From assembly GCF_006542275.1 (NCBI RefSeq), contig NZ_CP041217.1, forward strand, positions 620,001 to 684,000: DNA of 64,000 bases, given 5' to 3'. The notes under the pieces were generated by a model. The model was not told the origin of the DNA. It saw only the letters and a program-made list of their open reading frames with translations, and made no database searches. This DNA comes from Saccharibacillus brassicae (GTDB lineage: Bacteria > Bacillota > Bacilli > Paenibacillales > Paenibacillaceae). This document shows positions 4,637 to 19,174 of this stretch, piece by piece. Numbering within the stretch: the first letter of the stretch is position 1; each line of letters begins with the position of its first letter. A program made the position numbers and the translations under genes.

Positions 4637-5743
4637 ATGAGCGAAAAAGTATTTATTAGCCCCGGCAAATACGTACAGGGCAAAGACGTCGTAGACAAAG
4701 CGGGCGAATATGCCAAATCGTTGGGCCGATCGGCGCTCGTCATCGCGGACAAAATCGTCTGGCCGATCGCCGGCGACCGCGTCGCGAACAGTCTTGAAGC
4801 AGCCGGCATTTCGACCAAGCGGGCCGAATTCCAGGGCGAAGCTTCGCGCGGCGAGATCAAGCGGATCGCCGAACTCGGCGAAGGCGTCGATCTCGTCGTC
4901 GGCGTAGGCGGCGGCAAAACGCTCGATACGGCCAAAGCGGTCAACGACGTGCTCGGCGCCGCCTGCGTGATCGTGCCGACGACCGCTTCCACCGACGCAC
5001 CGACCAGCGCTCTGTCCGTGCTGTATACCGACGAAGGCGCTTTTGACGCCTATTCGTTCTATAAGAAAAATCCCGACCTGATCCTCGTCGATACGCGGGT
5101 CATCGCCGGCGCTCCGCCGCTGTTCCTCACTTCGGGCATCGCCGACGCGCTCGCCACGTGGGTGGAATGCCGTGCCGTTATCGAAGCGAGAGCGACCACG
5201 ATGGCCGGCGGCCTGACGACGCTCGCGGCGGAAGCGATCGCGCGCAAATGCGAAGAGACGCTGTTCGACTACGGGCTGCTCGCCTACGAGTCGGTCAAAC
5301 GCAAAGTCGTGACGCCGGCGCTGGACGCGGTCATCGAAGCGAACACGCTTCTCAGCGGACTCGGCTTCGAAAGCGGCGGACTCGCCGGCGCGCACGCAAT
5401 CCACAACGGCTTCACCGTGCTCGAAGGCGATATCCACCATATGACGCACGGCCAGAAAGTGACATTCGGCACGCTCGTACAGCTCGCGCTCGAACGCCGT
5501 TCGCTGCAGGAAATCGAACGTTATATCGATTTCTATCTCAAGCTCGACCTGCCGGTCACGCTCGAAGATCTGCACCTCAAAGACGTGTCGAACGAAGATC
5601 TGTACCGCGTCGCCGAAGCTGCCACGAAGGAAGGCGAGACGGCGCACAACCTGCCGTTCCCGGTCACCGCGGGCGACGTGCTCGATGCCATCCTCGCGGC
5701 CGATCAATATTCGCTCGCTTACAAAGCGAAGATCGGACGCTGA
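4637..5743 (+). CDS. gldA: Glycerol dehydrogenase (NAD-dependent, iron/zinc alcohol dehydrogenase family)
   Basis: This 368-residue cytoplasmic enzyme oxidises glycerol to dihydroxyacetone with NAD. It shows the [12 protein letters not shown] nucleotide loop (about residues 89-100), the [11 protein letters not shown] stretch, and metal-ligand regions around [12 protein letters not shown] and the HAIHNGF histidines. The length equals that of typical GldA. The start was set at the ATG at 4637 behind AAAGGAGC; the open frame continues upstream without support. A strong terminator follows 33 bp after the stop, so the gene is probably monocistronic. Confidence 0.92.
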
Positions 5744-8285: not shown

Positions 8286-8316
8286 AAAAAAGGCCCGGCA
8301 GCGCTGCCGGGCCTTT
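8286..8316 (-). terminator. Terminator of the Zur-controlled operon
   Basis: A perfect GGCCCGGCAGC/GCTGCCGGGCC hairpin is followed on the minus strand by TTTTTT. It lies 65 bp past the MFS stop and closes the nine-gene unit. Confidence 0.9.
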
Positions 8317-8381
8317 CTGTGTTCGAATGCAAGCCGAAGCTCCTGCCGACCTGTGCTCGCTTTGCGCGGAAAAGGGGTTCG

Positions 8382-9569
8382 TCACCGCACGCGGCTCCGG
8401 TATCCTTTTTCCGCGCCGAGCAGAAGCAGCAGCAGCACGGCGCACGCGCCGTACATGCCGGAGTACGACAGCCGGTCCGCGACCGGCCCCATCGCCAGTC
8501 CGCCGAGCGAAATGCCCAGATCCGCCGAAGCGATAAACAAACCGAGCAGCATGTTGCGGGAAGCTTGCGGAAGCGCAAAAGTGAGGTATGTCGTCAGCGA
8601 AGGATACAGCAGCGCCTGGGCCACTCCCATCAAGGCCGCGGCGGCGTAGAACGCGGCCGGGCCGGCCGATTCGGCGGCGGCCAGCAGCAGAACGGCAATC
8701 CCCGCCAGACCTACGACCCCCTGAACGAAGCGGGGCCGCCAGATGCCGTCCGAAGGAATCCGTTTGCGCAGCGCAAACCGGGCGGCGACGATGACCGCGG
8801 CCTGGATCATCATGTAGAGGCCCGCATTGCCGCAGACGATCTCTGCCGCATACAGCGGAACGAATACCGTCACGGCTCCGAACACGACGGAAGTGCCGAG
8901 CATCAGCAGGGTGCAGAGCGCAAGCGGCGGGATCGTAAATATCTGGCCAAAAGAGTGCCAAACGCTGCCCGGTTCCGCTTGTCCTTCTCCCCCGCTTGCA
9001 GGATTTCCGGGCGAGCGGATCGGCGTTGTGAAGCCGAAGATTCCCGTCCCGACCGCGATTAAGACCATCACCGCGAAAAAGGCGTTCATGTCTCCCCCGT
9101 TCCACAAGGCAAGCGCCAGCACCGGTCCGATAATGCCCGGCATGTACGTGAACAGCGAGTAGAGCGAGATGCCCTGCGACCGCTCTTCGTCGGACAGCGA
9201 ATCGATGATCGCGATTTGCAGCGCCATCGAAAAAAACGCCGTGGCGATTCCCTGCAGCAGACGCGCCGCGAGAAAACCCAAAAGGCCCGTCAGCGGATAG
9301 AGCAGCAGCGCGAAGCCGTTGACCAGCAGCAGCACGCGCAGCACCCGGGACGCTCCGTGACGCTGAATGATTTTTCCCGCCAACGGGCGAAAAAACATGC
9401 AGGTCAGCATGTAAGCGCCCATAATCCAACCGATCGCCGCGTTGCTGGCCCCGATCGCCTCGCTTCTCAGCGGCACGATAACGGCCAGAATCGAGTTGGC
9501 GCTGAAAAACAAAAACGCCAGGCCGTACAGACGGATAAACGTCCAGGAAGTCGCGCGCGAAGACTTCAA
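8382..9569 (-). CDS. MFS exporter, last gene of the putative metallophore operon
   Basis: The 395-residue protein has about 12 hydrophobic segments and major-facilitator loops (SDEERSQGISLYS, FFRPLAGKIIQRHGASRVLR). The start codon is TTG at 9569, preceded by GGAGGG; no in-frame ATG fits better. It begins 21 bp after the PLP-enzyme stop and ends just before the operon terminator. By analogy with the CntE exporter of staphylopine systems it is inferred to export the metallophore made by the upstream genes. The family assignment is secure; the substrate is inference from context. Confidence 0.85.
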   Translation of the reverse strand: MKSSRATSWTFIRLYGLAFLFFSANSILAVIVPLRSEAIGASNAAIGWIMGAYMLTCMFFRPLAGKIIQRHGASRVLRVLLLVNGFALLLYPLTGLLGFLAARLLQGIATAFFSMALQIAIIDSLSDEERSQGISLYSLFTYMPGIIGPVLALALWNGGDMNAFFAVMVLIAVGTGIFGFTTPIRSPGNPASGGEGQAEPGSVWHSFGQIFTIPPLALCTLLMLGTSVVFGAVTVFVPLYAAEIVCGNAGLYMMIQAAVIVAARFALRKRIPSDGIWRPRFVQGVVGLAGIAVLLLAAAESAGPAAFYAAAALMGVAQALLYPSLTTYLTFALPQASRNMLLGLFIASADLGISLGGLAMGPVADRLSYSGMYGACAVLLLLLLGAEKGYRSRVR

Positions 9570-9590
9570 AAGGTCACACCCTCCATTTCG

Positions 9591-10739
9591 TCAATCCAGA
9601 AAAGCGGCCGCGGGCGAGCGTCTGGCCCGGATCATGTCGTGCACATGCAGTTCGGCGTTCGCAAGCAAAGTCGCCTGCGGAACGTCCAGCGTCTCGATCA
9701 ATCCCATCTGCTCGTTGGCGCATTCGCCCGGCGATTCGCTCCACGGCTTCAGCTGCCGGGCGATCTCGCGCACGTCTTCAAGGCTCGCCGTCGTCGAAAA
9801 TCCCTGGCTTCGCATCCACTCGTCATTGAACAGCGTCCCGATGTACCGGTCTCCGCCGTCGGACACCATGCTGACGATCCGGCGTTCCGGCCCCCACTGC
9901 TGGGCCAGCTTGAGCGCGACCAGCGCGCAGGCTCCGCTGGACGGTCCCATCAGGATGCCTTCGTGGCGAGCGAACGCCCGGGCGGCCACGAAAGCATGCT
10001 CGTCCGAAATTTTGTAGGCATAATCCAGATTCGACAAGGTCAGGTTGACCGGCGTCCAGCTGAGCCCGACACCGGGCGTACGATAGGCGTTGGCCTGCCC
10101 GCCGAAGATCGTCGAGCCGACCGCGTCCACGCCGCAGATTTGCGCCTGCGGCGCGTACGTTTTGAGAAAACGCGAGATGCCGCCGAGCTGGCCGCCCGTG
10201 CTGACCGCCGCGACGAACGCGCTCAGTTCTCCCGGACACTGCTCCAGAATCTCCCGGGCCGTGCTGCGGTAATGCGCTTCCTGATTCAGCCGGTTGAAGC
10301 ATTGGTCCGGCCGGTAAGCCCCTTCGATCTCGCGGGCCAGCTTGTTCGCCAGCGCGATGCGCGTTTTGTGGTAGCTGCCGCTGTCGTCCTGCTCCGTGAC
10401 GACGATCACTTCCGCCCCGAACCCTTGGATCAGGGCGAGATTGGCTTCGGTCGTCTTGGGGTCTACCAAGATGAGGACCCGGTACCCTTTGGCGGCTCCG
10501 ATCATGGCCAGCGAGATGCCGAAGTTGCCGCTGGACGATTCGATCAACGTGCCGCCCGGCTTCAGCCAGCCCCTTTGCTCGGCCGTCTCGACCAGATAGA
10601 GCGCCGCACGGTCCTTAATGCTGCCTCCCGGGTTGTAGCGCTCGTACTTGAACAGGACCTGCGCTTCTTCGGGACGGTTCAGGCGGGCAAGCGAAATCAG
10701 CGGGGTCTGTCCGATCGTTCCCAAAATCGTGGAGCTCAT
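9591..10739 (-). CDS. PLP-dependent cysteine-synthase-family enzyme (SbnA/CysK-like)
   Basis: This 382-residue protein has the fold-type II PLP signature: Schiff-base lysine K42 in NPGGSIKDRAA, the substrate/phosphate loop SSSGNFG (68-74) and a glycine-rich STGGQLGG. Such enzymes do beta-replacement on O-acetyl- or O-phosphoserine. SbnA uses O-phosphoserine and glutamate to start 2,3-diaminopropionate synthesis for a siderophore. Here no SbnB-like dehydrogenase accompanies it, so the nucleophile is open. A GAGGAGG site sets the ATG at 10739, directly downstream of a 12-bp tandem repeat. Membership in this operon suggests it builds the ligand rather than cysteine. Confidence 0.85.
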   Translation of the reverse strand: MSSTILGTIGQTPLISLARLNRPEEAQVLFKYERYNPGGSIKDRAALYLVETAEQRGWLKPGGTLIESSSGNFGISLAMIGAAKGYRVLILVDPKTTEANLALIQGFGAEVIVVTEQDDSGSYHKTRIALANKLAREIEGAYRPDQCFNRLNQEAHYRSTAREILEQCPGELSAFVAAVSTGGQLGGISRFLKTYAPQAQICGVDAVGSTIFGGQANAYRTPGVGLSWTPVNLTLSNLDYAYKISDEHAFVAARAFARHEGILMGPSSGACALVALKLAQQWGPERRIVSMVSDGGDRYIGTLFNDEWMRSQGFSTTASLEDVREIARQLKPWSESPGECANEQMGLIETLDVPQATLLANAELHVHDMIRARRSPAAAFLD

Positions 10740-10757
10740 GGCGTATCCTCCTCGGGT

Positions 10758-10829
10758 GCGAACTCTGAAGCGAACTCTGAAGCGAACTCTGATATGAACT
10801 CTAATATGAACTCTAATACGAACTCTGAA
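10758..10829. repeat. Six tandem 12-bp repeats upstream of the PLP-enzyme gene
   Basis: Six head-to-tail units follow the pattern RYGAACTCTRAW (first unit GCGAACTCTGAA) with few differences. They sit in the 150-bp space between the ABC ATPase stop and the ribosome site of the PLP enzyme. Confidence 0.95.
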
Positions 10830-10889
10830 GCGAAAACCCGTGCAGCCTTGATGCAAAATCCGGCGCGAACTGAACGGTACGTCAAAGCT

Positions 10890-12524
10890 TTACTTCCTGT
10901 AGGCCGAAGTCGGCCGCTCTTCTTCTGCCGGGAAATCGGCGCCGCGCAGCAGCAGGCGGGTATGTTCATGCTCGCCGCGCAGCAAGCTCCGGCCCGGCAG
11001 CTGCTCGATAAAGCGTCCTTCGTGCATGACGGCGATCTGATGACAAAACGCGCGCAGCACCTTCACGTCATGGGAAATCATCAGGATCGAAAACCCGAAC
11101 TGGCGATGCAGGCGCTGCAGCAGTTCCAAAATTTGCGCCTGTACGCTCATGTCGAGCGCCGAAACGGCTTCGTCGCAGATCAGAATCTCCGGCTGCAGCG
11201 CCAGAGCGCGCGCAATCGCGATGCGCTGGCACTGCCCCGTGCTGAGCTGCGGCGGCCTGCGCCGCTGGGCAGACTCCGGAATGCCGACTGCGTCCAGCAG
11301 GAAGCGGGCCCGCTCAAGCCGCTCCGAACGGCTGCCGACGCGAAAGACATGCAGCGCGGCCTGCACAAGTTCCAGCGCGCTGACGCGCGGATTCAGACTC
11401 GCCCGCGCATCCTGGAACACGAGCTGGACATGCCGGGCCAGGCGGCGCCTGGCTCGCCCTGTCGCGTGGGTAATGTCTTCGCCGCGCAGCCGGACGGTGC
11501 CGGCATCCGCCGAATCCAGTCCCACGATGCAGCGAACGAGCGTCGATTTGCCGCAGCCGCTTTGGCCGAGAATGCCGACAATTTCCCGTTCGTGCAGCCG
11601 CAGGCGGACTCCGCTCAACACCCGCTGCCCCGGTCCGTACGATTTGGCCAAATCGTGCACGTCCAGCAGCGGGTTCTCCCCGTATGCGGGAGCACCCGAA
11701 CCGACCGCTTCCGGCTGCGCGGTCGGCGTACGGGCATCCAGCAGCTGCCGCGTGTATGCATGCTGCGGCCGCGCCAGCACCTGGGCGGTCTCTCCGCGTT
11801 CCACGATGCGGCCTTCGTGCAGGACGAGGACGCGATGGCTCAGCGCCTGCGCAAGCGCAAGGTCGTGCGTGATCAGCAGCACCGTCAGATCCAGTTCCCG
11901 CTGCAGGTTGTGCAGCAGGTCCAGCACTTCCCGCTGGTTCACCGTATCCAGCGCCGAAGTCGGCTCGTCCGCGATCAGCACCTGCGGACGCAGGCAGAGC
12001 GCAAGCGCCAGGCAGACGCGCTGGCACATGCCTCCGCTCAGCTCGTGCGGATACGACCGCAGCACTGTGGCCGGGTCCGCAAAACCGAGACGCGACAACC
12101 AATCCGCGCCGATCACCAATGTCTCTTCTTTTTCGGCCAGCCGATGCGCCCGCAGCGTCTCGCGAAAATGTTCGCCGATCCTCATCATCGGATTCAGCGC
12201 CAATCGCGCATCCTGAAACAGCATGGCGATACCGCGCCCGCGAAGCTTGGCCCAGGCCCGTTCCGGCCGCGCGAGCCGGATCGCCGGATGCCCTTCCAGA
12301 ACCAGCGTGCCGGACGCGACGGACGCGGAAGGCGGAAGCAGGCCGAGCAGCGCTTTGGCGATCGTCGATTTGCCCGATCCGCTCTCGCCGAGCAGGGACA
12401 CGATTTCGCCTTCGTACATCGTGAACGAAATCGCTTGGAGTACCGTCTGCCCTTTTTTCTCAGACCGGTACGCAATTTCCAGATTGTCGATTCGAAGCTT
12501 CTCCTGCTTGTCCGCGATTTCCAT
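10890..12524 (-). CDS. Fused dual ABC ATPase of nickel/oligopeptide-type importer (DppD-DppF or NikD-NikE fusion)
   Basis: Two ABC domains lie in one 544-residue chain. The N-half has GESGSGKST (46-54), LSGGMCQR and ADEPTSALD; the C-half has GQSGCGKST, LSTGQCQR and CDEAVSALD. In most Opp/Dpp/Nik systems these are two separate proteins. The second signature reads LSTGQ instead of LSGGQ, and both signature loops carry a cysteine where arginine is usual. It energises uptake through the two permeases encoded immediately upstream (45-bp gap). Substrate is inferred from the operon as a metal-ligand complex. Confidence 0.92.
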   Translation of the reverse strand: MEIADKQEKLRIDNLEIAYRSEKKGQTVLQAISFTMYEGEIVSLLGESGSGKSTIAKALLGLLPPSASVASGTLVLEGHPAIRLARPERAWAKLRGRGIAMLFQDARLALNPMMRIGEHFRETLRAHRLAEKEETLVIGADWLSRLGFADPATVLRSYPHELSGGMCQRVCLALALCLRPQVLIADEPTSALDTVNQREVLDLLHNLQRELDLTVLLITHDLALAQALSHRVLVLHEGRIVERGETAQVLARPQHAYTRQLLDARTPTAQPEAVGSGAPAYGENPLLDVHDLAKSYGPGQRVLSGVRLRLHEREIVGILGQSGCGKSTLVRCIVGLDSADAGTVRLRGEDITHATGRARRRLARHVQLVFQDARASLNPRVSALELVQAALHVFRVGSRSERLERARFLLDAVGIPESAQRRRPPQLSTGQCQRIAIARALALQPEILICDEAVSALDMSVQAQILELLQRLHRQFGFSILMISHDVKVLRAFCHQIAVMHEGRFIEQLPGRSLLRGEHEHTRLLLRGADFPAEEERPTSAYRK

Positions 12525-12569
12525 GCCTCCTCTGGTCTCTCCTGTTCACGTGCCCGTTTTCTTTTTCGC

Positions 12570-13397
12570 TCATATCCGGTGTTTCTCGTAAGGATCGATC
12601 ACGTCCCGCAGTCCTTCGCCGATACAGTTGAACGCCAGCACCGTCAGCACGATGAACAACGCCGGGCCGAGCAGCACATGCGGAGTCGTCATGAAATGCG
12701 CGCGCCCGTCGGCCAGCATGCTGCCCCATTCCGGCGAAGGCGGCTGGGAGCCCAGTCCGAGAAAAGACAGCGCCGCTATGCCCAAAATCAGGCTGCCGAG
12801 TTCGAACGTGGCCAGCACGAGCACCGGACCGAGCGCCTGCGGCAGCAGCTCCGTGCGCAGGATACGAACAGGCGAAGCGCCCAACACCCGGGCGGCTTCG
12901 ACGGCCGTGCTTTTCTTCGCCTGGATCACGATGCTGCGCGTCAGGCGCGCAAAACCGACCCACCACAGGATCACAACGGCCAGCAGCAGATGCGCAAGGC
13001 CCGTGCCGAACAAAGCCGCGATCACCATCGCGAACACCATGAACGGAAAAGCCAGCAGCACGTCGATGATCCGCATCAACGCGATATCGAGCAGCGAACC
13101 GTGAAGCAGGCCGGCCACGGCACCGAGCACCAGGCCGATCAGCAGCGCCGAACCGAGCGCAAGCCCGCACGAGACCAACGTCGTCTGACCGCCGTGCAGC
13201 GTACGGGCTAGCAGATCGCGCCCGAACCGGTCGGTCCCGAGCGGATGTTCCGGACTCGGCCGCTCCAGACGCGCGCCTGCGTTCATCGCCAGCGGATCGC
13301 CCAGCGGCAGCCACGAAGCGGCGAAGATCGGGACAATCAGCAGCACCAGCAGGAGCAGGCCGAAGATCAGCGTATAAGACGCTCGCCGGCTATTCAT
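12570..13397 (-). CDS. ABC importer permease, OppC/DppC/NikC type
   Basis: This 275-residue membrane protein has an N-terminal anchoring helix, a periplasm-side region with GTDRFGRD (typical of OppC/NikC) and five further membrane segments with an ATPase-contacting EAARVLGASPVRIL loop. It overlaps the preceding permease gene by 8 bp, which points to coupled translation. Together with its partner it forms the channel of the nickel/peptide-class importer. Confidence 0.93.
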   Translation of the reverse strand: MNSRRASYTLIFGLLLLVLLIVPIFAASWLPLGDPLAMNAGARLERPSPEHPLGTDRFGRDLLARTLHGGQTTLVSCGLALGSALLIGLVLGAVAGLLHGSLLDIALMRIIDVLLAFPFMVFAMVIAALFGTGLAHLLLAVVILWWVGFARLTRSIVIQAKKSTAVEAARVLGASPVRILRTELLPQALGPVLVLATFELGSLILGIAALSFLGLGSQPPSPEWGSMLADGRAHFMTTPHVLLGPALFIVLTVLAFNCIGEGLRDVIDPYEKHRI

Positions 13398-14352
13398 GCG
13401 CTCCCTCCTTGTGCGGACGTGCGACGCGCGGATCGAGCCAGGCGTACAGCCCTTCCACGATCAGGTGAATCCCGACGACCGACAACACCGTGACCAGCGC
13501 GTAACCTTGCAGAGCCGGGTAGTCTTTGTTCAGAATGCCGTTTAAGGCGTATTCGCCAAGTCCCGGCCACGCGAACAGACTCTCGATCACGACGGCCCCG
13601 CTGACGTAAGCGGTGAGCGACAGGCCGATCAGCGTAATCGTCGAGAGCAGCACGTTGCGCATGGCGTGACCGACGACGCGGCGCGTGCCGAGTCCCCGCG
13701 ACAGCGCGGACTGGACATAGACCTGCCCCAACTCGCTGAGCAGGTTGGCGCGCACGACGCGGATCATCTGCGGCGCTCCGAGCAGCCCCATCGTCAGCGC
13801 CGGCAGCCACAATCGCGACCAGCCGGCTCCGCTGCCGATTTCGTACAGCTCAAGCTTGACGGACAGCAGCAGGAGCAGCAGCAGACCGATCACGAACCCG
13901 GGCACGGAAGCCAGCAGCACGCACAGCAGCCGGACCAGCGTATCGGTCAGCGTCCCGGCACGCAGCGCCGACAGCATGCCGACCAGCAGCCCGATCCCGA
14001 CCTGGATCGTAAGCGCCGTGCATGCCAGAAGCAGCGTCGCCGGCCAGCGTTCGCCGATCTCGGCAGACACCGGCCGCTGCGTATAGAACGAAGTGCCCAG
14101 ATCCATGCGCAGCAGGCTGCCCGCCCACGATACGTATTGACTGAACAGACTTCCGTTCAAGCCCAGCTCGCCCCGCAGGTCGCCCACCATCTTGGCGTAC
14201 GTGTCGGCGTCCACCGCGATATCCAGCGTTCGGCCGATCAGAAGCTTGGCCGGATCGCCCGGCGCGAGGCGGATCAGCGCGAACAACACGATCGAAGCGG
14301 CAAAAACGGTAATACACGTCTGCAGAAGCGTAAGCAGCAATCGCCTTCTCAT
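13390..14352 (-). CDS. ABC importer permease, OppB/DppB/NikB type
   Basis: This 320-residue permease starts with MRRRLLLTLLQT and a first transmembrane helix, followed by APGDPAKLLIG, typical of OppB/NikB. The ATPase-docking loop SALSRGLGTRRVVGHA and the final VIESLFAWPGLGEYAL motif are conserved features of this group. It begins 21 bp after the solute-binding-protein stop and overlaps the next permease gene. Confidence 0.93.
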   Translation of the reverse strand: MRRRLLLTLLQTCITVFAASIVLFALIRLAPGDPAKLLIGRTLDIAVDADTYAKMVGDLRGELGLNGSLFSQYVSWAGSLLRMDLGTSFYTQRPVSAEIGERWPATLLLACTALTIQVGIGLLVGMLSALRAGTLTDTLVRLLCVLLASVPGFVIGLLLLLLLSVKLELYEIGSGAGWSRLWLPALTMGLLGAPQMIRVVRANLLSELGQVYVQSALSRGLGTRRVVGHAMRNVLLSTITLIGLSLTAYVSGAVVIESLFAWPGLGEYALNGILNKDYPALQGYALVTVLSVVGIHLIVEGLYAWLDPRVARPHKEGAHE

Positions 14353-14373
14353 CAGCGTCCGCCTCCTTTGCCG

Positions 14374-15987
14374 TTACGGAGACACAAATTTCAGATTTGC
14401 GTTCACCAAATTTTCGAACGGACGGAAATGGTCGACGAATCCTTCCAGATTCCGGCTGACGGCCGTCACCTGCGGACGCGGATACAAGCTGATGACCGGC
14501 GCCTGTTCGGCGATATAGGCGTTGGCTTCGAGCGCCCGCGCATGGCGCGACGCTGCGTCGGTCGCCGCTTCCAACCGCTCCAGCAGTTCGTTTGCTTTGG
14601 CGTCGTCGAAGCCTCCGTAATTGCCGCTGCCTTCGGGCGCGTATTGGCCGCTCAGAAGCGTATGCGGCTCGCCGAACGTGCTCCACGCTTCGATAAAAGC
14701 GTCCCATTGGCCCGTCTCGCGCGCGCTCTCGATCAGGCTGTAATCGCCGTGCCGGATATCGGCCTGAATGCCGAGCTGCGTCCACTGGTACTGCAGCGTC
14801 TCGCCGAGCGCACGATCGCCGCCCCACGTCATCAGCGTCAGGGTGAACGGTTCGCCGTTTTTGGTGCGCACGCCCGAGCCGTCGAGCGTCCAACCGGCTT
14901 CGTCGAGCAGCTTCCCTGCACGCTCAAGATCGAACTTGGCGTATACCGCGTCCCGCGCTTCGGCAAATGCCGGATTGGAACTGAGCCACGTCGTTACGGG
15001 AAAGCTCTGCCCTTCCGCCGCCTGCAGAATCAGTTCCTCGCGATCGATCCCCCAGGACAGCGCCTGCCGGACCCGGACGTCCCGGAATTTGTCCTGCTTC
15101 AAATTCAGGTACACGGTCTGCGTATTGGAAGCGGGCACGGTCGAAAGCTTCACCTTGTCTTCCGCCTGCAGCTGTTCGATTGCCGATACCGGCATCTTCT
15201 GCGCGATATGGCTGCTGCCGCTCAATACGGACAGCATCCGCGTCTGCTCGTCGGCAATCTGCTCGTGCACGACGCGGGCAATCGCAGGCTTTTCGCCCCA
15301 GTACTCGTCGTTGACGGCAAGTTCCATCCGCTTCTGCGGTTCGAAAGCGGTCACTTTGTACATGCCGGACAAGTCCATCGTGCCTACGGCGTCGTGAGCG
15401 GCTTCCGCGTTATGGATCAGCGTCTGGTACGAAGACAGACTCAGCGGCACGTCCATGTTCGGATGCGCCGTCTTGACCTGCAGCGCGGCGTCGTCCGTGA
15501 CGGAGAACGTCAAATCCTGAATGTACGGCACGACCTGCTTGTCGAGCTTGCGCGAACGTTCCAGCGAAGCGACGACCGCCGCGGCATCGACCTTTTTCCC
15601 GCTCCAGAACTTCGCTTCCGGCTTGAGCGTGATCTTCCATGTCTTCGCGTCGACCGCTTCGGCGCTTTCTGCCAGCACGGGCTGGATCTTCCCTTCGGGA
15701 TCGGCTTTGAACAGCGTCTCGCCCGCGCCGATCGCGATCAAATAGCTCGACGTGAGCGGCTGTACCGGATCGAGCGCGGCCGCGATTTCCTGATCGGCGA
15801 TGATCAGCTCCTGCGGAACTTTCTCCCCGGTATCGGAAGCTTCGCCGCCTGCCTCGGCTTCCTTGGACGCCGGCGCCGCTTCGGCCCGATTAGGAGCGGC
15901 CTGCTCGTTCGCCGCCGGCGCGCCGCACCCTCCCACCATGATGAATCCTATTAACAGCAGCGGGTAAAAAAACTTTTTTCTATGCAT
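14374..15987 (-). CDS. Lipoprotein solute-binding protein, family 5 (nickel/peptide class)
   Basis: This 537-residue receptor starts at the ATG at 15987, behind GGAGG; the longer frame would begin with an unsupported TTG. The signal peptide ends in a VGGC lipobox with the lipidated cysteine at residue 21. The mature protein has SBP_bac_5 features: LTSSYLIAIGAGETLF, WKITLKPEAKFWSGKKVDA, VRQALSWGIDREEL. It would capture the extracellular ligand (inferred metal-metallophore) and deliver it to the two downstream permeases. NikA, CntA and peptide receptors share this fold, so sequence alone does not fix the ligand. Confidence 0.9.
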   Translation of the reverse strand: MHRKKFFYPLLLIGFIMVGGCGAPAANEQAAPNRAEAAPASKEAEAGGEASDTGEKVPQELIIADQEIAAALDPVQPLTSSYLIAIGAGETLFKADPEGKIQPVLAESAEAVDAKTWKITLKPEAKFWSGKKVDAAAVVASLERSRKLDKQVVPYIQDLTFSVTDDAALQVKTAHPNMDVPLSLSSYQTLIHNAEAAHDAVGTMDLSGMYKVTAFEPQKRMELAVNDEYWGEKPAIARVVHEQIADEQTRMLSVLSGSSHIAQKMPVSAIEQLQAEDKVKLSTVPASNTQTVYLNLKQDKFRDVRVRQALSWGIDREELILQAAEGQSFPVTTWLSSNPAFAEARDAVYAKFDLERAGKLLDEAGWTLDGSGVRTKNGEPFTLTLMTWGGDRALGETLQYQWTQLGIQADIRHGDYSLIESARETGQWDAFIEAWSTFGEPHTLLSGQYAPEGSGNYGGFDDAKANELLERLEAATDAASRHARALEANAYIAEQAPVISLYPRPQVTAVSRNLEGFVDHFRPFENLVNANLKFVSP

Positions 15988-16008
15988 ATCGCGAACCTCC
16001 AACTTTAT

Positions 16009-16812
16009 TCATATGGCCTGCGCAAGCAGTTGAAGCCTTCTGCCCTGCATGCTTTTCCCAAAAACGAGCGGTTGATCTTGTTCGAACGCTCCGATATGCG
16101 GCGCAGGCTGATCGAACAGCTCGATCAGGCGGAAGCCGGACTCGGTCAAATACCGGACAAGTTCCTGCGGAAACAGCAGCCGATGCTTCAGATGTTCCGC
16201 GATCGGCTCCTGCCCGTCGAATTCCCAGCTGTAATCGCGCAGCAGCAGCTGATTCGGCAGGTCGATCGAAAAGCGCGTGCGCAGCGTCACTCCCTGCTCC
16301 CCGTGCATACGCCGGTCGATCAATTCTTCCTCCAGCCAGCGCTGCCCTTCGCGGGTGAGGAAAAACGCCGCGTTGCGCATATCCAGATACAGCAGGCCGC
16401 CTTCCTTCAAATGGTTGCGGAAGCAGCCAAGAGCAGCGCGTACGTCGTCGTTCGTAAAATTGTACAAAAACGTGCTGCCCACGCAGGTGAGCGCATCGAA
16501 TTGCTCGTTCAGCTCGAAACGTTCCTGATCTCCGCGCACGAAAGACCGTTCGGGATACTTCTCTCTGGCCCAGCGCAGCATTTCCTCCGACTGGTCCAGC
16601 CCCGTCACGTCGTACCCGGCTTCGCTGAGCCAGTCCACTTCCCGGCCCGGTCCGCAGCCGACGTCCAGCACTTTCGGTCCCGAGTCGTATTCGCGCAGCA
16701 GCTTGTCAATAAACTGCGCCATGCCGAAATCTTCTTCTCCGTTAAAAGTCAGGTACAGCGACGGACGGGTGTGCAAAAAATTGTCGCGATCCGAATTAAG
16801 TGACGCCGACAT
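16009..16812 (-). CDS. Class I SAM-dependent methyltransferase
   Basis: This 267-residue Rossmann methyltransferase has motif I VLDVGCGPGREVDWL (48-62), motif II GLDQSEEMLRWA and a post-I acidic region. The C-terminal half has an YSWEFDGQEP region seen in small-molecule methyltransferases. A GGAGGAGG site precedes the ATG. It lies 22 bp after the DUF364 gene and 21 bp before the solute-binding-protein gene. It could methylate an amine or carboxylate of the operon product. It does not resemble nicotianamine synthase/CntL. Confidence 0.85.
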   Translation of the reverse strand: MSASLNSDRDNFLHTRPSLYLTFNGEEDFGMAQFIDKLLREYDSGPKVLDVGCGPGREVDWLSEAGYDVTGLDQSEEMLRWAREKYPERSFVRGDQERFELNEQFDALTCVGSTFLYNFTNDDVRAALGCFRNHLKEGGLLYLDMRNAAFFLTREGQRWLEEELIDRRMHGEQGVTLRTRFSIDLPNQLLLRDYSWEFDGQEPIAEHLKHRLLFPQELVRYLTESGFRLIELFDQPAPHIGAFEQDQPLVFGKSMQGRRLQLLAQAI

Positions 16813-16834
16813 GAAGTTCCTCCTCCTTCAAACC

Positions 16835-17629
16835 TCAATGATAGATAAACAGTTCGGAAGCTCCGCCGCTAAACTGCGTAAACGGAAACGGTTCGGCCAC
16901 GACGCTCCGCACGCCTTCGCCCACGAACCGTGCGGCGATGGCGCTGCCGGTCTGGGCGTAGACGGTCAGCGGTATTTCGCGTTCCCGGACCTTGTGCACG
17001 ATCAGATCGAAGCTGCCGTTGCTCAGCGTCATGCCCGTGCAGATGACGCTGTCGGCCTGCTCCAGCACGACGTGCATGTCCGGCTCCACGCGCTGTCCGC
17101 TCTGCGTGCGTTCCAGCTGCAAATCGCAGGGCAGGCAGATGCCTCCGCGCCGCTCGATCGCTTCGATCAGCGGATTGACGACGCCGATCAGCGCGACGCG
17201 GCTGCCGGGCGCGATCCGCGCCGTATCGGCGACGCAGGCGTCGCGCAGCAGCGCCTTGTCCAGCGGAGTACCGGCGGGAATATGCGCCACTTCCCGGCAG
17301 GCGCCGTGATGCGGCCGCACTGCGGCCAGATAGGCGTCCATCGCCGCCACGCGCACCGGCAGGCGATCATCGCGCAGCAGCTCCGCCACGGAGCGGCCGG
17401 AGCATTCCTCGGCCGCGTCCGCGGAGAGCTGCCCGGGCGTATGCGAGCATGCGCCAAAAGCTTCTCCCACCCGCAGCAGCAAATAGTGATTCCGGTATTT
17501 CACGGCAGAACCGGGAAACTGAGTCGTCTGGTAGATACTTACCGCGCCGGTCGCGGACACCGATGCGGGATCGGCGCCGAGTTCTCCCCGCAGAACCGCT
17601 TCCTGCAATGCGTTCAGGTTCAGGTTCAT
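16835..17629 (-). CDS. DUF4213/DUF364 protein (putative heavy-metal chelation domain)
   Basis: The protein has 264 residues. The start is the ATG at 17629, which overlaps the ATP-grasp stop in an ATGA arrangement; the longer frame lies inside that gene. The N-terminal half fits DUF4213, and the C-terminal Rossmann half (RVALIGVVNPLIEAIERR, SVICTGMTLSNGSFD) fits DUF364. This superfamily has been proposed to handle heavy metals. Its translation is probably coupled to the ATP-grasp gene. Its biochemical step is not known; it may bind metal or act on the ligand. Confidence 0.8.
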   Translation of the reverse strand: MNLNLNALQEAVLRGELGADPASVSATGAVSIYQTTQFPGSAVKYRNHYLLLRVGEAFGACSHTPGQLSADAAEECSGRSVAELLRDDRLPVRVAAMDAYLAAVRPHHGACREVAHIPAGTPLDKALLRDACVADTARIAPGSRVALIGVVNPLIEAIERRGGICLPCDLQLERTQSGQRVEPDMHVVLEQADSVICTGMTLSNGSFDLIVHKVREREIPLTVYAQTGSAIAARFVGEGVRSVVAEPFPFTQFSGGASELFIYH

Positions 17630-18888
17630 GGCGAGACTTCGCTCTCTGCCGCGTAACGAAGCCGGATACGCGACAGCGCGTCTTCGGCGTAGCTTCTGGC
17701 CTGCCGCCCTTCGCGATCGATCGCGACGACGTGGCCCAGATAGCACGCATTGTCGATCGGCGCTTCCACGAAGCGGGACTCGCAGTCCGCGAACTGGAAC
17801 CGGGCGAGGCGGGCATCGTTCGCCAGTTCTTCCGTTCCTTCCAGGTGCTCGATCAGGCCCCGCTTCGGCGGAACGAGGAACGCGATCGCGGCGCTGCGAA
17901 CGCCCCGGTCCTGCGTGTTAAGCACAGGCTTGCAGCCGAGCGCCAGATCGACGAACACGTCCAGCAGATCGAGTCCGGTGACGTGATGCACGAGTTCGAC
18001 GATGTAATTGCCGGCCGTTCTCGGATTGATCTCGACGATGCGCGGACCGTCCGCCGTCAGCATCACTTCGGTATGCGCGATGCCGTGGTCGAAGCCGACC
18101 GCTTCAAGCGCGCTTTCGACGAACAGCCGCACTTCCCCGGCTGTCTCTTCGCTCAGCTGCGCCGGGAACATATGTCCGTTCTCGATAAAATAAGGCGTCC
18201 CGGTGACCGACTTGTCGGTAATGCCCAGCGTATGAATCTCTCCTTCGCAGCAGACGCTCTCCACGCTGACTTCGCTGCCTTCCATAAACGCTTCCAGCAG
18301 CATGCGGCGATCGCGTTCCTGATCCCGGAAGTTGAGCGGGAAGTTCTCGAGGGCCGCATAGGCCATATGTAATTCCTGCGCGTCCCGAATAAGGTTGACG
18401 AACGCGCTGGACGCCAGATCGACAGGCTTGGCGACGAGCGGATAGCCGATCTCTTCGGCCGCCGCCCGCGCTTCTTCCCACCCGCGCACGATGCGGTAGG
18501 ACGGATTGGCAAGCCCCGCCCGATCAAGCGCTTCGCGCATCCGGTATTTGTTCCTGACCTGCCCCACCGCGGCGGGAAACGGACACGGAAGCGACAGCGC
18601 CTGCGCCACGTCCTTGACCGTATCGATATAGTAATCGCACACCGTAATGACGCCGTCGAACGCGTAAGGCCGCAGCTTCTCGATCAGTTCGGCCGTATCG
18701 TTCGTCTCGGCGATCAGCACTTCCTGCGCATGCGCGAGGACCGGATGCGGCGATTCGCTGCCGTCTTCCCCGTAATGGCCCGGCCTGCGGGTGACGAACG
18801 TGTACGTGTGGCCTCTTTCTTCAAGCAGCACAGGCAGCAGCCTGCCGCTCGCTCCGACCCAACTCTCGATCATCAATAAATGCGCCAT
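17626..18888 (-). CDS. ATP-grasp ligase, first gene of the Zur-controlled operon
   Basis: This 420-residue protein begins with an N-terminal Rossmann-like part (MAHLLMIESWVGASGRLL), followed by an ATP-grasp core with YPLVAKPVDLASSAFV and the metal-binding VEINPRTAGNYI. This resembles carboxylate-amine ligases of the CarB/L-amino-acid-ligase group, which form amide bonds through an acyl phosphate. A strong AAGGAGGGGG site precedes the ATG. A Zur-box sequence lies 19-33 bp upstream of the start codon. As lead gene of the operon it likely joins the amino-acid building blocks of the ligand. Confidence 0.85.
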   Translation of the reverse strand: MAHLLMIESWVGASGRLLPVLLEERGHTYTFVTRRPGHYGEDGSESPHPVLAHAQEVLIAETNDTAELIEKLRPYAFDGVITVCDYYIDTVKDVAQALSLPCPFPAAVGQVRNKYRMREALDRAGLANPSYRIVRGWEEARAAAEEIGYPLVAKPVDLASSAFVNLIRDAQELHMAYAALENFPLNFRDQERDRRMLLEAFMEGSEVSVESVCCEGEIHTLGITDKSVTGTPYFIENGHMFPAQLSEETAGEVRLFVESALEAVGFDHGIAHTEVMLTADGPRIVEINPRTAGNYIVELVHHVTGLDLLDVFVDLALGCKPVLNTQDRGVRSAAIAFLVPPKRGLIEHLEGTEELANDARLARFQFADCESRFVEAPIDNACYLGHVVAIDREGRQARSYAEDALSRIRLRYAAESEVSP

Positions 18889-18906
18889 ACTTCTCCCCCT
18901 CCTTTT

Positions 18907-18921
18907 TCGTAACGATTACGA
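18907..18921. promoter_or_regulatory. Zur box upstream of the metallophore operon
   Basis: The 15-mer TCGTAACGATTACGA is a 7-1-7 inverted repeat. It differs at a single position from the Bacillus subtilis Zur consensus TCGTAAT-N-ATTACGA. It differs more from the Fur (TGATAAT-N-ATTATCA) and PerR boxes. It lies between the likely -10 region and the ribosome site of the ATP-grasp gene, where a bound repressor would block transcription when zinc is sufficient. Confidence 0.85.
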
Positions 18922-18925
18922 TTAT

Positions 18926-18954
18926 ACACTATACACCATTCATTTATTTGTCAA
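18926..18954 (-). promoter_or_regulatory. Promoter of the Zur-controlled operon
   Basis: On the minus strand a perfect TTGACA -35 (18949-18954) is followed by AT-rich sequence with TATAGT after 15 bp, TAGTGT after 17 bp and TATAAT after 22 bp. The exact -10 is therefore uncertain. Confidence 0.6.
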
Positions 18955-19174
18955 TAGATCCATATCGCTAAAAAAGACGCATAAATTGTTTGCTGCTTAA
19001 CGAAAATCCGGGACTGTATCCGTATATGCCCTGCTTTGCAAATCTTCCGCTTTTCCTGCTCCGCTTCCCGCTGCCTGTTTCTTGCTTCCTGCTTTCCTGC
19101 CTGCTTCCTGTTCCTGCTTCCTGCTTACTCTACGCGCTCCTGCGTGCCTTTCGCGGCGCTTGCCGTCGAGGCTC

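Follow-up and report, generated by a model that had tools for sequence, protein, structure and literature searches.

In this study we analysed 64,000 nucleotides of Saccharibacillus brassicae DNA (NZ_CP041217.1, positions 620,001 to 684,000; here called the window) and found in it a nine-gene operon that probably encodes a Zur-controlled zincophore system of a non-opine kind, in which a ligand would be synthesized, exported and re-imported by a non-staphylopine route on a CntE-type export chassis. An initial annotation, made from the letters of the window, had predicted zinc-controlled synthesis, export and import of a metallophore without the staphylopine (Cnt) synthesis enzymes. This core prediction held: the exporter belongs to the CntE family, the opine dehydrogenase domain PF10100 is absent from the genome, the four enzymes of the operon occur intact together in 17 of 19 loci and a Zur-like site precedes all 19. 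We see about an even chance that the operon represents an undescribed class of zinc metallophore, a phosphoserine-derived aminocarboxyethyl aminopolycarboxylate made by an SbnA-like enzyme and released by a CntE-type pump. This class would have a one-enzyme form (eight genomes) and a four-enzyme form (17 intact loci), the latter giving the DUF364 family its first defined pathway.

The operon is located in a genome of 5.62 Mb on a single contig. Its genes run on the minus strand from 18888 to 8382, between a Zur box and a terminator hairpin, and all nine were present in the annotated order, which is that of the following list (aa, amino acids).

18954-18949, minus strand: -35-like hexamer TTGACA, read by eye
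18933-18928 and 18926-18921, minus strand: -10-like hexamers TATAGT (spacing 15) and TATAAT (spacing 22), read by eye
18907-18921, no strand assigned: Zur box TCGTAACGATTACGA, exact match in a whole-genome pattern scan
17626-18888, minus strand: ATP-grasp ligase of the L-amino-acid-ligase type, 420 aa (Pfam ATP-grasp_4 and LAL_C2; nearest PDB entry BL00235)
16835-17629, minus strand: DUF364 protein, 264 aa (Pfam), with Cys165-x-x-Cys168 and Cys197 invariant in 18 of 18 members
16009-16812, minus strand: class I S-adenosylmethionine-dependent methyltransferase, 267 aa (family searches; solved relatives)
14374-16002, minus strand: family 5 solute-binding lipoprotein of the Nik/Opp class, start probably at 15987
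13390-14352, minus strand: ATP-binding cassette (ABC) permease of the NikB/OppB type (family searches)
12570-13397, minus strand: ABC permease of the NikC/OppC type (family searches)
10890-12524, minus strand: fused dual ABC ATPase with NikD- and NikE-like halves (two ABC_tran stretches)
9591-10739, minus strand: SbnA-like pyridoxal phosphate (PLP) enzyme of the beta-replacement type, 382 aa (family searches, alignment, tree)
8382-9569, minus strand: CntE-family metallophore exporter of the major facilitator superfamily (MFS), 395 aa (NF047574, 537.8 bits, cutoff 235)
8286-8316, minus strand: intrinsic terminator hairpin (fold -25.3 kcal/mol, z -4.63)

Intergenic distances were -8 to +45 nt, with a single exception of 150 nt ahead of the PLP gene (10740-10889). 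This gap contains a short repeated Arg-Val-Arg/His coding-like pattern, which accounts for an over-long open frame to 10856; the gene most likely starts at 10739. The annotated terminator was recovered as a strong fold, despite not being listed by the pattern-based terminator scan. The operon is under purifying selection, with dN/dS values of 0.08-0.27 for all nine genes in two pairwise comparisons with relatives. Low-complexity CTTCCTGC-type repeats were observed at 19040-19130, in the stretch that separates the operon promoter from the next gene.

The Zur box is one of three exact matches to the pattern TCGTAAYNRTTACGA in the whole genome. Allowing one mismatch the pattern was found 14 times, and allowing two mismatches 53 times, as against nine times for the reversed control pattern at up to two mismatches. 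We inspected the surroundings of all 14 sites, and nine of them lay at identifiable zinc or transport groups, this operon included. In one region (L016) three boxes precede znuCBA, an rpmG-like gene, and a CobW gene with rpsN2 behind it. A second CobW gene is preceded by one box (L019) and a Nik-like importer by two (L018). L017 has two, one ahead of Opp-like transport genes and one ahead of a flavoprotein/FeoB-like pair. No obvious zinc gene was seen in the surroundings of five of the 14 sites (L010-L014). The CobW, S14 and ZnuA genes of L016 and the flavoprotein and FeoB-like gene of L017 were named by Pfam, the remaining box neighbours by reading. The predicted box at the operon promoter resembles the boxes of the znuCBA, rpmG-like and CobW genes, as expected of a member of the Zur regulon. 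We then trained a matrix on four boxes (the three of L016 and that of L019) and scored with it the 200 bp preceding the ATP-grasp gene at each of the 19 loci that carry the operon. A Zur-like site was found in 19 of 19; out of 71-99 windows per locus, no more than 4 scored as high as this best site or higher (in the 64-kb window, 1 of 319). The core box was exact in the four Saccharibacillus loci and weaker elsewhere, often of the TAGTAA type. The 19 loci are interrelated, therefore this conservation does not amount to 19 independent events. We concluded that the operon is apparently zinc-controlled. A promoter together with a Zur box had been annotated at 18907-18954; the box stood, but the promoter scan detected no sigma-70 site with 16-18 nt spacing upstream of the operon, leaving the hexamers read by eye, of which the second -10-like one touches the box.

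Two further observations were made at Zur-like boxes. In L018, at 5618-5670 (genome 2243617-2243669), the two boxes are 38 bp apart and stand upstream of a Nik/Opp-type importer read from the frames; this may be the second Zur-controlled system of this genome for a metallophore or for metal import. A Pyr_redox_3 flavin oxidoreductase and a FeoB/Gate-type GTPase lie beside Zur-like boxes in two Saccharibacillus genomes (L017 9106-11912 and L119 13885-16685; the L119 pair was named by reading only).

The exporter matched the NCBIfam CntE model NF047574 far above its cutoff and was 53-55% identical to the exporters of six loci with an opine dehydrogenase (L081-L085, L088). For the receptor, identity to its counterparts was 22-26% at five of the six loci, L083 giving no match, and it reached 103 bits against the CntA cutoff of 800. 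Staphylopine systems thus share their export side with the operon but not their receptor, a pattern consistent with a different ligand. Accordingly, from the earlier proposal that import and export are both kept from staphylopine systems, only the export half can be retained; the receptor and permeases do belong to the nickel/peptide class as annotated, with the receptor not CntA-like.

CntK, CntL and CntM had been annotated as absent. For the opine dehydrogenase CntM this applies to the whole genome, in which PF10100 gave no match at E≤0.001, while for the CntL nicotianamine-synthase-like enzyme and the CntK racemase, the latter expected in only part of such systems, it applies to the nine operon genes, the rest of the genome not having been searched. 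Since neither CntM nor a CntA-type receptor was found, we did not class the operon as an opine system. Mutual exclusion of the operon and opine clusters was considered within Saccharibacillus, where the operon occurs in 4 of 16 genomes, PF10100 in 3 of 16 (one interrupted by a stop) and both in none. We do not claim it, because chance would give no overlap in about 39% of cases and because three genomes outside the genus (G038, G062, G128) have both.

The PLP enzyme, annotated as CysK/SbnA-like, was nearest to SbnA (TIGR03945, 295.5 bits), followed by cystathionine beta-synthase (284 bits). In a tree of 38 rows, two of them outside the three groups compared, the 17 operon enzymes formed one clade (support 100/99) apart from 4 SbnA and 15 CysK sequences. 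Arg132, Tyr152 and Ser185 of SbnA are named as selective for O-phosphoserine in the available text of the source (PMC12414870). At these positions Arg, Cys and Ser were present in 17 of 17 operon enzymes, and Ala, Phe and Gly in the 15 CysK enzymes; two of the three phosphoserine-recognition residues are therefore kept. No SbnB-type protein above 30 bits was found in 10 of the 19 carrier genomes, among them G005, G008 and G015. SbnB would release diaminopropionate from the product of such an enzyme. With 10 of 19 carriers lacking an SbnB-type protein at that threshold, SbnB is apparently dispensable for the pathway, which makes the aminocarboxyethyl product, left uncleaved, the probable scaffold. 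A separate SbnA/SbnB pair is present in this genome at 915037-917063 (L130, L177), presumably for another siderophore.

To follow the distribution of the enzymes we used 392 genomes of the order and 398 genomes of the phylum, both sets drawn evenly from larger groups; in each genome scoring was limited to the few best first-look candidates. The PLP alignment gave 25 strong matches in the order, 17 in intact operons and 8 elsewhere; in the phylum set this genome alone matched. In all eight other loci (L194-L201, two genera) the PLP gene, 58-60% identical, adjoins a CntE-type gene that is 36-38% identical. The two genes overlap by 4-8 nt in L195, L196 and L200 and are separated by 1 nt in L194. 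Of the eight exporters, three were tested, and all three scored above the CntE cutoff. The Arg-Cys-Ser signature was present in eight of eight of these PLP enzymes, and two of them reached 335 and 341 bits, like the operon enzyme below the SbnA cutoff of 349.95. No ATP-grasp, DUF364 or methyltransferase match was detected at E≤1e-4 in the 20-kb stretch examined at each of the eight. That the PLP gene stands beside a CntE-type exporter in eight genomes without the other three enzymes suggests that its enzyme makes an N-(2-amino-2-carboxyethyl)-amino acid as the chelating scaffold, to be elaborated in the operon by the other enzymes. The two-gene unit of L194-L201 is a candidate for a one-enzyme metallophore pathway. 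That the product itself might chelate metal is a hint, given best by the PLP gene being coupled only to a metallophore-type exporter. An Opp/Nik importer lies next to the pair in L194. PepSY-type (PepSY_TM) membrane proteins were observed beside the pair in L195 and L198, with a similar frame in L196.

Of the three enzymes specific to the operon, the ATP-grasp protein carries LAL_C2 and has BL00235 and BacD as nearest PDB entries; as it is of the L-amino-acid-ligase type, an amide-forming step is predicted. Seven of the ten solved relatives of the methyltransferase among the matches listed are N-methyltransferases. The third protein had been annotated as DUF4213/DUF364. Its DUF364 part (PF04016) was recovered at 38.7 bits against a gathering cutoff of 23, and was listed for 18 of 18 family members at E≤10 (best E 3.2e-12). 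The N-terminal DUF4213 domain (PF13938) was found by Pfam in none of the 18, even at E≤10, though a profile-profile comparison by hhalign with DUF4213-DUF364 proteins (97.8%, E 1.2e-12) supports remote homology over most of the length. An AlphaFold model from four sequences was too poor to use (mean predicted local distance difference test score 42). We know of no reaction assigned to the DUF364 family so far. The operon context would fit the metal-chelation role that was guessed from genome context in the available part of the DUF364 structure paper (PMC2954201).

Looking for the same gene set with conserved Zur boxes in other genomes had been proposed as a check, and 18 relatives were found. 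A profile scan with a DUF364 alignment of four close sequences recovered three other Saccharibacillus species only (Saccharibacillus deserti, S. endophyticus and S. sacchari, all with the operon), and the wider genome search extended the family. DUF364-protein matches at E≤1e-8 were obtained in 19 of the 392 genomes of the order, in 10 of 49 genera; beyond S. brassicae these were 18 further versions of the operon, two of them decayed. In the phylum set the DUF364 search returned only this genome and two remote cases outside the order: G435, whose surroundings were uninformative, and G476, a short contig viewed by tblastn only. Gene order is the same in L027-L030 and L056-L069 apart from the losses given here. 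The 17 loci with all four enzyme genes intact have them mostly beside the same transporters. The exporter gene lies within the operon in 15 of 19 loci and is missing in L056, L058, L059 and L062; another CntE-family gene lies about 6 kb off in G111 (L056) and about 13 kb off in G174 (L058). Within 8 kb of the L056 and L057 operons (2 of 18 relatives) we found a CobW GTPase, ZnuA, ZnuB and a Fur-family regulator, the latter called Zur by position, with Pfam naming done for L057. The L058 operon lies near CobW and ZnuA and that of L030 beside CobW, and in the stretch around the operon none of these four was seen in the remaining 14 relatives.

Some single loci deserve mention. L057 (G180) has, in addition to the four enzymes and the exporter, a different importer and one more methyltransferase; it lies beside a zinc island of CobW, Fur-family regulator and ZnuABC. 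In L027 (8054), L028 (10947) and L029 (11645) ACG replaces ATG at the aligned ATP-grasp start, shortly after a strong ribosome-binding site. The two decayed loci, L030 and L064, retain importer, exporter and ATP-grasp and are possible uptake-only "cheaters"; the genome of L030 (G038) has two opine dehydrogenases elsewhere.

From the sequences we infer the zinc response, the product, the order of steps, the metal, the ligand and the DUF364 chemistry as follows. Upon zinc shortage Zur would dissociate from its box at the promoter, allowing expression of the operon. The SbnA-like enzyme would exchange the phosphate of O-phospho-L-serine for a second amino acid, attached through its amino group. 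The resulting N-(2-amino-2-carboxyethyl)-amino acid, an aminopolycarboxylate core, would take the role that CntL's aminobutyrate transfer has in staphylopine. The ATP-grasp ligase could add a further amino acid via an amide bond, and the methyltransferase could methylate an amine or carboxylate; one further step, not nameable from sequence, would fall to the DUF364 protein. The ligand would leave the cell by the CntE-type exporter and come back as its metal complex through the importer, made up of the receptor, the two permeases and the fused ATPase.

Several results weigh against this scheme. The PLP enzyme scores below the SbnA cutoff and has Cys in place of Tyr152. SbnB-type proteins scored above their cutoff in 6 of the 19 carriers, one of which is this genome (at 915 kb), and three more carriers gave matches of 206-314 bits, so that diaminopropionate stays among the conceivable products there. 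CntE-family genes above cutoff were found in 25 of 31 genomes searched, some of which have neither enzyme set (G007, G012, G013), thus the exporter alone proves little; a second CntE-family gene is also present in this genome at 354 kb. Several relatives have weak upstream sites, e.g. TAGTAAAATTTACTA with 18 bits, to which another Fur-family protein could bind. At the eight PLP-exporter pairs no Zur or Fur box with up to three mismatches was found within 330 bp upstream, and therefore the pair need not serve zinc. The importer belongs to the nickel/peptide class: the nearest solved relatives of the receptor are nickel-binding proteins, and the permeases and fused ATPase matched best to nickel-transport models, the ATPase above and the permeases below cutoff. 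Staphylopine-type ligands are moreover reported to bind several metals in the available text of a survey (PMC7438024). A nickel/cobalt or broad-spectrum metallophore merely switched on by zinc shortage would suit these features. We nevertheless consider it unlikely, as the Zur-type site at every locus and the znuAB genes and Fur-family regulator near the operon in two relatives point to zinc.

Alternatively, 2,3-diaminopropionate or a sulfur amino acid might be the product of the PLP enzyme, and that of the operon a small dapdiamide- or bacilysin-like peptide serving as an antimetabolite or another signal instead of a zincophore. The weak similarity of the ATP-grasp protein to the bacilysin and dapdiamide ligases, the nearly equal scores of the PLP enzyme for SbnA and cystathionine beta-synthase and the SbnA/SbnB pair elsewhere in this genome would agree with that. 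We judged it quite improbable, since the operon itself has no SbnB and more than half of the carriers gave nothing above 30 bits, CysK-type residues are absent from the PLP enzyme, and an importer, a CntE-family exporter and a Zur box in one unit are unlike an antibiotic. The two decayed loci also keep the exporter without an intact PLP gene or methyltransferase: the PLP remnants are matches of 33 and 80 aa in L030 and L064, the methyltransferase left a 33-aa match in L030 and none in L064, and the DUF364 gene of L030 is fragmented. Such loci would be expected if the enzymes cleaved or modified an imported foreign metallophore and the system served zinc uptake only. This has very little probability in our view, because a catabolic route would give little reason for a dedicated exporter and a beta-replacement enzyme, and because all four enzymes are kept in 17 of 19 loci. 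A zinc ligand that is made, exported and re-imported thus stays the preferred reading.

The second CntE-family MFS gene of this genome (354482-355609; L123 9408-10628) reached 362 bits, over the cutoff, and adjoins an amidohydrolase-like gene. Similar over-cutoff matches were observed in G005, G008, G012 and G015, with an amidohydrolase-like neighbour also in G012 (L125).

No description of the nine-gene operon was found in the open-licence literature, a scope outside which most subscription papers and bioRxiv preprints fall. The published survey of opine-like zincophores is, in its available text, anchored on CntM, and a CntE-exported ligand made without CntM would therefore be invisible to it (PMC7438024). 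As far as the available part of the antiSMASH 7 description goes, its cluster types include opine-like and aminopolycarboxylic acid metallophores (PMC10320115). The locus provides a four-enzyme pathway open to test and places DUF364 in a physiological setting; in the two-gene sister version the presumed scaffold-forming step stands alone. If true, this would broaden what is known of the chemistry by which bacteria scavenge zinc.

Among known systems, the staphylopine, pseudopaline and bacillopaline (Cnt) systems resemble the operon in the CntE exporter family, a Nik/Opp-class importer in the cluster, a Zur-type box and an expected amino-acid-based ligand. They differ in that the operon genome has no CntM, the receptor is only distantly similar and far below the CntA cutoff, and PLP, ATP-grasp, DUF364 and methyltransferase genes stand where those systems have the opine enzymes. 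SbnA of staphyloferrin B biosynthesis shares the PLP beta-replacement family and the equivalents of Arg132 and Ser185 with the operon enzyme, which differs by the invariant Cys for Tyr152, its separate clade and its score below the TIGR03945 cutoff; the operon also contains neither SbnB nor a NIS synthetase. In the zincophore EDDS (aes cluster) and the fungal chelator aspergillomarasmine a CysK-like enzyme builds C-N-linked zinc-chelating amino acids. Here the likeness would be one of expected chemistry, and the operon differs by including ATP-grasp, DUF364, CntE and a Nik/Opp importer. With the DUF4213/DUF364 family (Dhaf4260) the operon protein shares homology over most of its length and the earlier metal-chelation guess, as put in the available part of that paper (PMC2954201). 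Unlike that family, the operon members lack a Pfam DUF4213 domain (18 of 18), have an invariant CxxC motif and are tied to one apparently Zur-controlled pathway.

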